A stretch of 64,000 nt of DNA from Faecalibacterium sp. An121 (GTDB lineage: Bacteria > Bacillota > Clostridia > Oscillospirales > Ruminococcaceae), in the NCBI RefSeq assembly GCF_002160915.1, contig NZ_NFLM01000003.1, positions 1 through 64,000 on the forward strand. The letters are read 5' to 3'. Position numbers and translations under genes: made by a program. This document shows positions 15,355 to 40,258 of the stretch, one piece after another. Numbering within the stretch: position 1 is the first letter of the stretch; the number at the start of each line of letters is the position of its first letter. The notes beneath the pieces are model-generated. The model was not told where the DNA came from. It searched no databases and saw only the letters and a program-made list of their open reading frames with translations.

Positions 15355-16506
<1,152 letters not shown>

Positions 16507-38719: not shown

Positions 38720-39394
38720 TCAGTCGAACAGCTTGGACAGGGCGTCCTCCTCTTCCTCCAGGCCGCCGGCCAGGTCGGGCAGGGTGAGGGTCTCGTCCGA
38801 GTGGGGGCCGGCCTTGGCCTTTTGGGGGGCCTGCTGGGCCTTGCGGGTCAGCTCGCACACCTCGTCGCAGAGGGTGTAAATGGCCCCGCAGTCCCCGGGC
38901 ATATCGGTCAGGTTGCGCCCGTAGTGGGTGAACAGGATGGCCCCTTCCTCCCCCAGCACCAGGGTCAGCGGGAGCAGCTGGGGGGCCTTGTGGTTGTAGC
39001 GCATCCCCTTGGCCTGGGCGCTGCGCAGGATGCGCTGGGCCTCAAAGCTCCAGTTCAGCAGGCCGGCGGTCTCCACCCCCATAAAGTTGTACAGCACCCC
39101 CGGCTGGTCGCAGATGAGGTCGAAGGGCAGCTGCCGGCCCTCCAGGGCCTGGGCCACCTGACGGGGCCCGCTGCGCACCACGCAGGCCAGCTTGACCCCT
39201 TTCAGGTCGTCCAGGGTCTTGAGGTAGCGGGAGATGTAGGTGCGGGTGATGGGATGGTCGAATGCGGGCAGGAAGATCATGGCCAGGGGCTTGTCCCCGG
39301 CGCACAGCCGGTAAAAGTCGTTGCCGGGGGACGAGGGGGTGTCGTAGGTGAAACGTGGGATGGAAGTCCCCACCAGGTGGTCTTCGGTCCGCAT
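38720..39394 (-). CDS. peroxiredoxin-like (AhpC/TSA fold) protein without peroxidatic cysteine
   Basis: A 224-residue protein. The middle reads as a redoxin fold: a YDTPSSPGNDFYRLC opening, the strand PLAMIFLPAF, then a helix, VKLACVVRSGPRQVAQALEGRQLPFDLICDQPGVLYNFMGVE. In true peroxiredoxins the loop after the first strand has a Cys in PxxxTxxC; here it is LPAFDHPITRTYIS with no Cys. The C-terminal tail (about 175-224) is acidic and Glu-rich. The ATG at 39394 is chosen over 39433. No redox activity by the usual mechanism is expected; it may bind ligands or partners. Confidence 0.65.
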   Translation of the reverse strand: MRTEDHLVGTSIPRFTYDTPSSPGNDFYRLCAGDKPLAMIFLPAFDHPITRTYISRYLKTLDDLKGVKLACVVRSGPRQVAQALEGRQLPFDLICDQPGVLYNFMGVETAGLLNWSFEAQRILRSAQAKGMRYNHKAPQLLPLTLVLGEEGAILFTHYGRNLTDMPGDCGAIYTLCDEVCELTRKAQQAPQKAKAGPHSDETLTLPDLAGGLEEEEDALSKLFD

Positions 39395-39507
39395 ACTGCA
39401 CACATCCTTTCCGGTTTTCGGGCCAGGATGCATCTGAAAACGACCGCCGTTCGGCAGATCTTCCCCCTATGCTGCATTTTCAGATACACCCCGGCAAGGG
39501 GGTAAAC

Positions 39508-39533
39508 AAAAAAGCCGGACCAAAAGTCCGGCT
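39508..39533 (-). terminator. Rho-independent terminator (minus strand)
   Basis: A perfect 8-bp stem AGCCGGAC/GTCCGGCT with a 5-nt loop is followed on the minus strand by six T. It would end transcripts coming from the DUF1292 gene or from the structured element at 39566-39724. Confidence 0.9.
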
Positions 39534-39565
39534 GTTATCATAAAAAAGATCCCGCCCGGTCGTCT

Positions 39566-39724
39566 GCGGATGAATCAAACCTACCCTTACGGACAGGTGG
39601 GTGCCCTGCCAATGGTTTCATGCTCCCGCATCGATCCTCCAGGGTGGACCCTGACGGGGCGGTCTGCAATCCCCCACCGGACTCCAGGCTCCCGATGGAT
39701 GATTAGTAGGATCATATATTCCGC
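39566..39724. ncRNA. candidate structured RNA of unknown class
   Basis: This 159-nt non-coding stretch folds on paper into a closed structure. The ends pair (GCGGA 39566 with TCCGC 39724), then CCTAC (39580-39584) with GTAGG (39706-39710), then a second nested set: CATCG/CGATG (39629, 39693), GGTGG/CCACC (39643, 39674) and GGGG/CCC. A side hairpin is possible around 39590-39615. The terminator 33 nt beyond its left end favours transcription on the minus strand, but orientation is open. It does not match tmRNA, RNase P, SRP RNA or riboswitch cores that I know; 6S RNA is a possibility I cannot confirm. Confidence 0.4.
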
Positions 39725-39777
39725 AACAAATCGTGCCGGGCAGGATACTGCCGGTTTGGGGGCCGGCCCGCAAAGGG

Positions 39778-40092
39778 TCAGCCGATGTCGAAGTTGTCGC
39801 TCAGCCGCTTTTCGAACAGAGCGCCCACTTCCATCAAGGTCTCGTCGTCATCGACCACGTCCAGGTACTCGCCTTCGGCGTCCTTGCCAACGCTCAGGAT
39901 CACCAGCTGGGCGTCCTCGTCCAGGTCTTCTTCGTCCTCGACGTATTCGACGACGGCCAGATAATGCACGCCCTTGTGGTCCAGCGCGTCGATCACCTCA
40001 AAGGTGATCTCGTTGCCGTCCTCGTCCTGCAGTGTCATCAGGTCGGGCTGGTATGCATTTTCTTCCTGAGGGATCTTGTTTTCGTCTGCCAT
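39778..40092 (-). CDS. DUF1292 protein (YrzB family)
   Basis: A 104-residue, very acidic protein. The DUF1292 pattern is visible: TLQDEDGNEITFEVIDALDHKGVHYLAVVEY and a DDETLMEV segment near the end. The function is unknown. In many Firmicutes the family is encoded next to ruvX, which lies 1 kb away here with the cyclophilin gene between. The ATG at 40092 follows GGAGTTATACCG. Confidence 0.9.
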   Translation of the reverse strand: MADENKIPQEENAYQPDLMTLQDEDGNEITFEVIDALDHKGVHYLAVVEYVEDEEDLDEDAQLVILSVGKDAEGEYLDVVDDDETLMEVGALFEKRLSDNFDIG

Positions 40093-40151
40093 CGGTATAA
40101 CTCCAGTCTGTTTCACATCTGGGGGCCGGTGCAGGCCCTCGTCTTGCCTAT

Positions 40152-40180
40152 AGTGTAGCGTTTTTTTGCCGCCTCGTCAA
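40152..40180 (-). promoter_or_regulatory. promoter of the DUF1292 gene
   Basis: On the minus strand, TTGACG (40175-40180) and TACACT (40152-40157) are 17 nt apart. Confidence 0.8.
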
Positions 40181-40249
40181 GATGCTAAATCAGGAAAAAG
40201 CGTTTTTTGCAGTTTTCACTTCTCTTCCCTCGCCTGGCAGGCGGTTCTG

Positions 40250-40258
40250 TGGTATACT
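40250..40258 (+). promoter_or_regulatory. extended -10 promoter of the cyclophilin gene
   Basis: TGGTATACT forms an extended -10 (TGnTATACT) 64 nt before the start codon. No good -35 box is seen. Confidence 0.55.

Follow-up and report, generated by a model that had tools for sequence, protein, structure and literature searches.

The 6S RNA gene of Faecalibacterium, its DUF1292 neighbour and the possible origin of its transcript

The locus

The window, i.e. the whole stretch of 64,000 nucleotides that was analysed, carries on its minus strand a DUF1292 gene, followed by a 6S RNA gene and an intrinsic terminator. In the direction of transcription, the parts of the locus are the following:

40152..40180, minus strand, promoter-like site of sigma-A type (TTGACG-17-TACACT) preceding DUF1292, with the 6S RNA as a proposed second target
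39778..40092, minus strand, DUF1292 gene, immediate upstream neighbour of the 6S RNA gene at a distance of 28 nt (PF06949, 51.9 bits on the longer frame, cut-off 24)
39545..39749, minus strand, 6S RNA gene (ssrS / bsrA type), 205 nt by the model with model-predicted ends, based on RF00013 and covariation
39736..39746, minus strand, outer closing stem, 5' strand, 11 bp with 39549-39559
39720..39725, minus strand, inner closing stem, 5' strand, 6 bp with 39565-39570
39706..39719, minus strand, predicted pRNA template, predicted pRNA GUAGGAUCAUAUAU with a start near 39706
39706..39713, minus strand, helix P2, 5' strand, pairs with 39577-39584
39694..39705, minus strand, central bubble, 5' side, from the model alignment
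39599..39693, minus strand, internal (apical) arm, helices 4-8 of the counted structure
39585..39598, minus strand, central bubble, 3' side, able to fold with 39579-39584 into an 8-bp hairpin incompatible with P2
39577..39584, minus strand, helix P2, 3' strand, pairs with 39706..39713
39565..39570, minus strand, inner closing stem, 3' strand, pairs with 39720..39725
39549..39559, minus strand, outer closing stem, 3' strand, followed by TCTTTTTT on the minus strand
39513..39533, minus strand, intrinsic terminator downstream of the 6S RNA, a 9-bp stem with 6 GC pairs, then TTTTTGTTTA

The ATG at 40092 was chosen as the DUF1292 start, the alternative being a GTG at 40116. On the minus strand, the terminator (39533..39513) comes after the RNA, an order which the initial annotation of this DNA had implied. 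Beyond it follows a minus-strand frame at 38720-39433 with a sub-threshold match to AhpC/TSA antioxidant enzyme (PF13911, 22.9 vs. 27 bits).

The same annotation had described four pairs of complementary segments between 39566 and 39724. All of them exist, but only two are 6S helices: GCGGA at 39566 and TCCGC at 39720 form the inner closing stem, and CCTAC at 39580 and GTAGG at 39706 correspond to helix P2, in both cases with 5/5 bases mutually paired. The segments CATCG at 39629 and CGATG at 39693 do not pair with each other in the 6S structure (0/5 bases), nor do GGTGG at 39596 or 39643 and CCACC at 39674 (0/5 bases). The range 39566-39724 itself covers the interior of the RNA and proved too short, with the outer 11-bp stem outside of it.

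Assignment to the 6S RNA family

The Rfam model RF00013 (6S RNA) scores 58.1 bits at 39749..39545 on the minus strand, above its curated cut-off (46.4) and with E 6.2e-9 in the 64-kb window; the alignment covers model positions 1-187 of 187, i.e. it runs end to end. The initial annotation had proposed a candidate novel RNA to which the conserved RNA classes do not fit. This novelty claim was wrong, given the full-length RF00013 match with a score over the curated threshold, and a new RNA class was rejected on the same match. The accompanying suggestion of a structured RNA of 6S-like size was borne out, the RNA being 6S itself. Several sub-threshold Rfam matches in the same stretch (anti-hemB, SorX, sucA-II, rox1, BASRCI414) are far under their cut-offs and were taken as chance. 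The feature is almost certainly the single 6S RNA gene found in the Faecalibacterium genome, in which one RF00013 match was found, and is transcribed from the minus strand. It is an ordinary gene and an added member of a well-known RNA family. Hence, a candidate "novel RNA" can be removed from the list, and the 6S gene of a gut genus is identified.

The RNA resembles RF00013 6S / SsrS in length, closing stem, central bubble, P2, apical arm and covariation. It differs in the apical arm, at whose tip the RF00013 model skips 25 nt, and in that no promoter of its own was found in Faecalibacterium (see below). At curated cut-offs, the 64-kb window holds three Rfam matches, namely the 6S RNA, a tRNA and a SAM riboswitch. 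The riboswitch (RF00162, 15175-15273, plus strand, 71.1 bits) lies upstream of a frame at 15355 and is ordinary. The first codons of this frame look like those of an S-adenosylmethionine synthetase.

Distribution among relatives

In the search among relatives, a 6S match at E <= 0.001 was obtained in 54 of 61 genomes, with 46 of the 61 above the cut-off; in the class draw it was obtained in 124 of 148 genomes, 117 of them above the cut-off. Both counts include the own genome and were made with stricter filters, by which weak matches were lost. Some of the genomes without a match are incomplete, others nearly complete. Among the 14 control genomes, five matched in the relatives search (E. coli and B. 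subtilis included) and four in the class draw.

A single place per genome is the rule, found in 53 of the 54 matching genomes. For B. subtilis, PMC8414754 names two 6S RNAs (6S-1 and 6S-2), compared to the one 6S match in this genome. The genome with two places, G034, belongs to a relative of the same family; its contig C3 carries two equal matches (68.8 bits) at 1077168-1077358 (L007:1501-1691 in our locus set) and 1080129-1080319, about 3 kb apart, perhaps a recent tandem duplication.

Covariation and strand

The initial annotation had named a lack of covariation as part of what would refute it; covariation was counted on alignments of relatives, and the outcome favours a structured RNA. For the genus, 28 distinct Faecalibacterium sequences were aligned with MAFFT, G006 being omitted from the 29 as identical to G003. 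The counted 6S structure combines the window sequence with the Rfam alignment and, for the apical arm, the RNAalifold genus fold. Being composed in this way, this structure is favoured on the measure of paired cells, which amounted to 98.5% of 1506 cells compared to a shuffled mean of 93.6%, with 0/500 shuffles as high. Changes on both sides were found in 14 of the 54 pairs (7.2 in shuffles), two-sided changes in 83 cells (shuffled mean 30.1), and the covariation score was 0.173 (shuffled mean 0.089); none of 500 shuffles was as high on any of these measures, whereby the shuffle control ignores relatedness and its figures, here and below, are not probabilities. The number of further pair types in the genus was no higher than in the shuffles (84/500 as high). 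Structures slid by 1-3 columns pair just 36.5-46.5%.

The two-sided changes in the genus are located in the closing stems and the apical arm. In the outer stem, the pairs are invariant or kept through changes among the 28 Faecalibacterium sequences, except for the outermost pair, 39746-39549, which is paired in 15/28. The core of P2 (five pairs) does not vary in the genus, and the genus alignment is therefore uninformative for this helix. The order alignment consisted of 29 sequences, seven from Faecalibacterium and all 22 others fetched. As RNAalifold gave just 25 pairs on it, the named 6S structure was counted instead. Here, 77.8% of 1461 cells were paired (68.7% shuffled), 34 pairs were changed on both sides (25.7 shuffled), with 172 such cells and a score of 0.266, and 0/500 shuffles reached the observed values on all five measures. 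Slid structures paired 40-49%, with 17-27 pairs changed on both sides, and of the P2 cells 74% were paired. Altogether, the closing stem, the central bubble and the long apical arm of a 6S RNA are present and supported by covariation.

Read on the minus strand, the genus alignment contains 117 G-U cells and 3 A-C cells, and minus is taken as the RNA strand because the G-U cells far outnumber the A-C cells; in the noisier order alignment the signal is weaker (130 G-U vs. 71 A-C cells). An RNA on the plus strand could be considered, or an element belonging to the AhpC/TSA-like or PPIase gene nearby, as the initial annotation gave its segments on the plus strand and this strand folds too (-75.6 kcal/mol). 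However, besides the G-U excess, the Rfam match sits on the minus strand, and on plus the stretch 39566-39724 folds with z = +0.1, which leaves this explanation with next to no probability. Scarcely more probable is a structured RNA of a new class which merely resembles 6S. The score would allow for it, being modest with 58 bits compared to up to 110 among class members, as would the apical arm, which deviates from the RF00013 model. Against it stand the end-to-end match above the cut-off, the single place per genome mentioned above, and a gene neighbourhood shared by 50 of 51 loci, one of them scoring 77.6 bits. Hence, assignment to 6S RNA on the minus strand is the reading we follow.

Folding energies and the 3' bubble hairpin

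The evidence for the RNA rests on the family model and covariation. Folding energy alone is no better than chance. The minus-strand fold has z = -1.5 with 16/200 shuffles folding as well, while for 39566-39724 on the plus strand 103/200 shuffles were as good. Thermodynamic stability was rejected as evidence, being too weak and near chance on both strands.

The energies are also close for competing folds of the RNA. The whole canonical 6S form is predicted at -72.5 kcal/mol and the best fold at -83.8; the latter keeps 45/54 canonical pairs, lacks P2 and contains a hairpin on the 3' side of the bubble. With P2 enforced, the best fold reaches -83.3 at the cost of all pairs (7/7) at the apical arm's base. 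Energy prediction alone does not tell whether P2 or the 3' bubble hairpin forms. The possible 8-bp hairpin (39598-39591 with 39586-39579) shares bases with P2, and each of its pairs is identical in 28/28 sequences; this invariance is its one support here, and would be expected of the same bases in P2 and the bubble anyway. When the pRNA template is blocked, the best fold (-82.3) has 0/8 pairs of the hairpin, and enforcing the hairpin gives -82.0, i.e. 0.3 kcal/mol worse. A switch to the hairpin upon pRNA synthesis was considered and is unsupported by the template-blocked fold.

A possible hairpin on the 3' bubble side is shared with B. subtilis 6S-1 (bsrA), likewise a 6S RNA of the Bacillota. 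According to PMC8876501, E. coli 6S forms a 9-bp hairpin at this place, whereas that of B. subtilis 6S-1 is smaller and exists already in the free RNA. Compared with these descriptions, the possible genus-invariant 8-bp hairpin would be nearer in size to that of E. coli than to that of B. subtilis 6S-1.

Proposed function

6S RNA is well established as a mimic of open promoters to which the primary-sigma form of RNA polymerase binds. Its level rises as growth slows, and transcription from many promoters is lowered. Once nucleotides are available again, the bound polymerase transcribes a short pRNA from it, by which P2 opens and 6S is released. By family membership, the most likely function of the Faecalibacterium RNA is that of a classical 6S, which would sequester primary-sigma RNA polymerase. 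Its bubble (5' side 39705-39694, 3' side 39598-39585) would imitate melted promoter DNA and hold the polymerase. The pRNA, predicted to be copied from 39706-39719 in the region of the 5' bubble side and P2, would open P2 and free the RNA; the product would begin GUAGGAUC. Its start near 39706 is predicted from the 6S model alignment and the position of the pRNA starts of E. coli and B. subtilis.

DUF1292 neighbourhood and origin of the transcript

Among 51 order loci examined, which come from the 55 places of the relatives search (absent are G009, G033, G053 and the second G034 copy), DUF1292 lies directly upstream of 6S on the same strand in 50. The profile used for this count was made from 19 of the upstream proteins themselves, for which the count is not independent; a single-sequence tblastn gave 48/51. 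In the exception, G037, no DUF1292 was found upstream of 6S in its 3.2-kb locus. Within the class, DUF1292 is directly upstream in 9 of the 30 fetched loci, which are the best-scoring ones. Close DUF1292 relatives in named genomes all belonged to Faecalibacterium (18/18 loci); these loci overlap with the genome set of the relatives search.

The gap between DUF1292 and 6S is at most 47 nt in 43 loci (e.g. 19 nt in G054) and 60-85 nt in seven (60 nt in G039, 85 nt in G042), the split being placed at an empty interval in the data. In a first promoter scan, the -10 box had to lie no more than about 18 nt from the start of 6S, and p <= 0.01 was reached only by G035, G044 and G037 (G017 0.043). The scan was widened to 28 nt after a TATAAT had been spotted further upstream in G032, with a -10 match of at least 4/6 and A2 and T6 required, and its output then served to set the score limit of 9. 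With these settings, which were tuned on the data, a sigma-A-like site scoring at least 9 precedes 6S in 0/43 close-gap loci but in 7/8 others. As 29 of the 43 are from one genus, Faecalibacterium, the comparison was also made without it and gave 0/14 vs. 7/8 (Fisher p 4.7e-5, from loci still related by descent). Across the order, the locus appears to switch between a gap of at most 47 nt without a promoter and one of at least 60 nt with a promoter.

The sigma-A consensus scan found no promoter in the short DUF1292-6S gap of Faecalibacterium. Across 29 genomes of the genus, this gap is the least conserved stretch from the DUF1292 start to 6S (means 0.42-0.50 per 10 nt). The promoter-like site before DUF1292, in turn, sits in a conserved island of the Faecalibacterium alignment, and TTGACG-17-TACACT recurs with identical hexamers and spacing in 18/18 named Faecalibacterium loci and the window. 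Because a gap promoter was not found and the DUF1292 promoter is conserved, 6S may be processed from a DUF1292-6S transcript. Judged from these sequence features, there is about an even chance that the 6S RNA of Faecalibacterium and of several related families lacks an own promoter, is processed from the 3' end of the DUF1292 messenger and has its level tied to DUF1292 expression. Less firmly than the polymerase binding proposed above, it would then be made as the 3' part of this transcript and trimmed. The gap holds a GCCGG/CCGGC hairpin that has no U-run (39750-39767, minus strand), as it does in several close relatives; this hairpin might mark a processing site.

Alternatively, 6S has its own promoter, which the scan missed because it depends on an alternative sigma factor or lies inside the DUF1292 frame, and does not come from the DUF1292 transcript. 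We consider this well possible, with somewhat less than even prospects. A strong sigma-A-like site does occur in 7/8 relatives with a gap of at least 60 nt or without DUF1292, and the 3' part of the DUF1292 frame, with means of 0.76-0.91 per 10 nt in its last 60-90 nt, is conserved enough that it could hide one. Moreover, the clostridial 6S of C. difficile, RCd3, is preceded at its start by own sigma-A promoter elements according to PMC3649979, which makes it unlike the RNA studied here. An own promoter is less compatible with the 0/43 close-gap loci, or with a Faecalibacterium gap that is poorly conserved where the site before DUF1292 is kept in 18/18 loci. Hence, the DUF1292-6S transcript is somewhat likelier than an unseen promoter, and in itself roughly a toss-up.

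If the promoter-less arrangement is true, 6S would be supplied via messenger processing, and DUF1292 would be tied to a known regulator, with the level of a global polymerase regulator linked to the expression of a small acidic protein. RCd3 of C. difficile was seen in two bands, at about 200 and 175 nt, regarded by the authors as perhaps primary and processed forms (PMC3649979). For C. acetobutylicum, three 6S bands were read as processed forms (PMC3879012).

Our literature searches found no paper that pairs "6S RNA" with "DUF1292" and none on ruvX, yqgF, yrrK or yrzB with 6S RNA. The paper "Dissemination of 6S RNA among bacteria" may already list these genes. In titles and the beginnings of abstracts found for co-transcription, there was nothing on a DUF1292-6S arrangement. 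For 6S RNA together with Faecalibacterium, PMC6749105 alone was found, which in the passages concerned is about E. coli 6S.

The Faecalibacterium alignment also contains a second conserved island at about 40249-40258 (mean 0.90, GTATACCA on the minus strand). It is placed between DUF1292 and the divergent PPIase gene and is possibly the -10 region of the latter.
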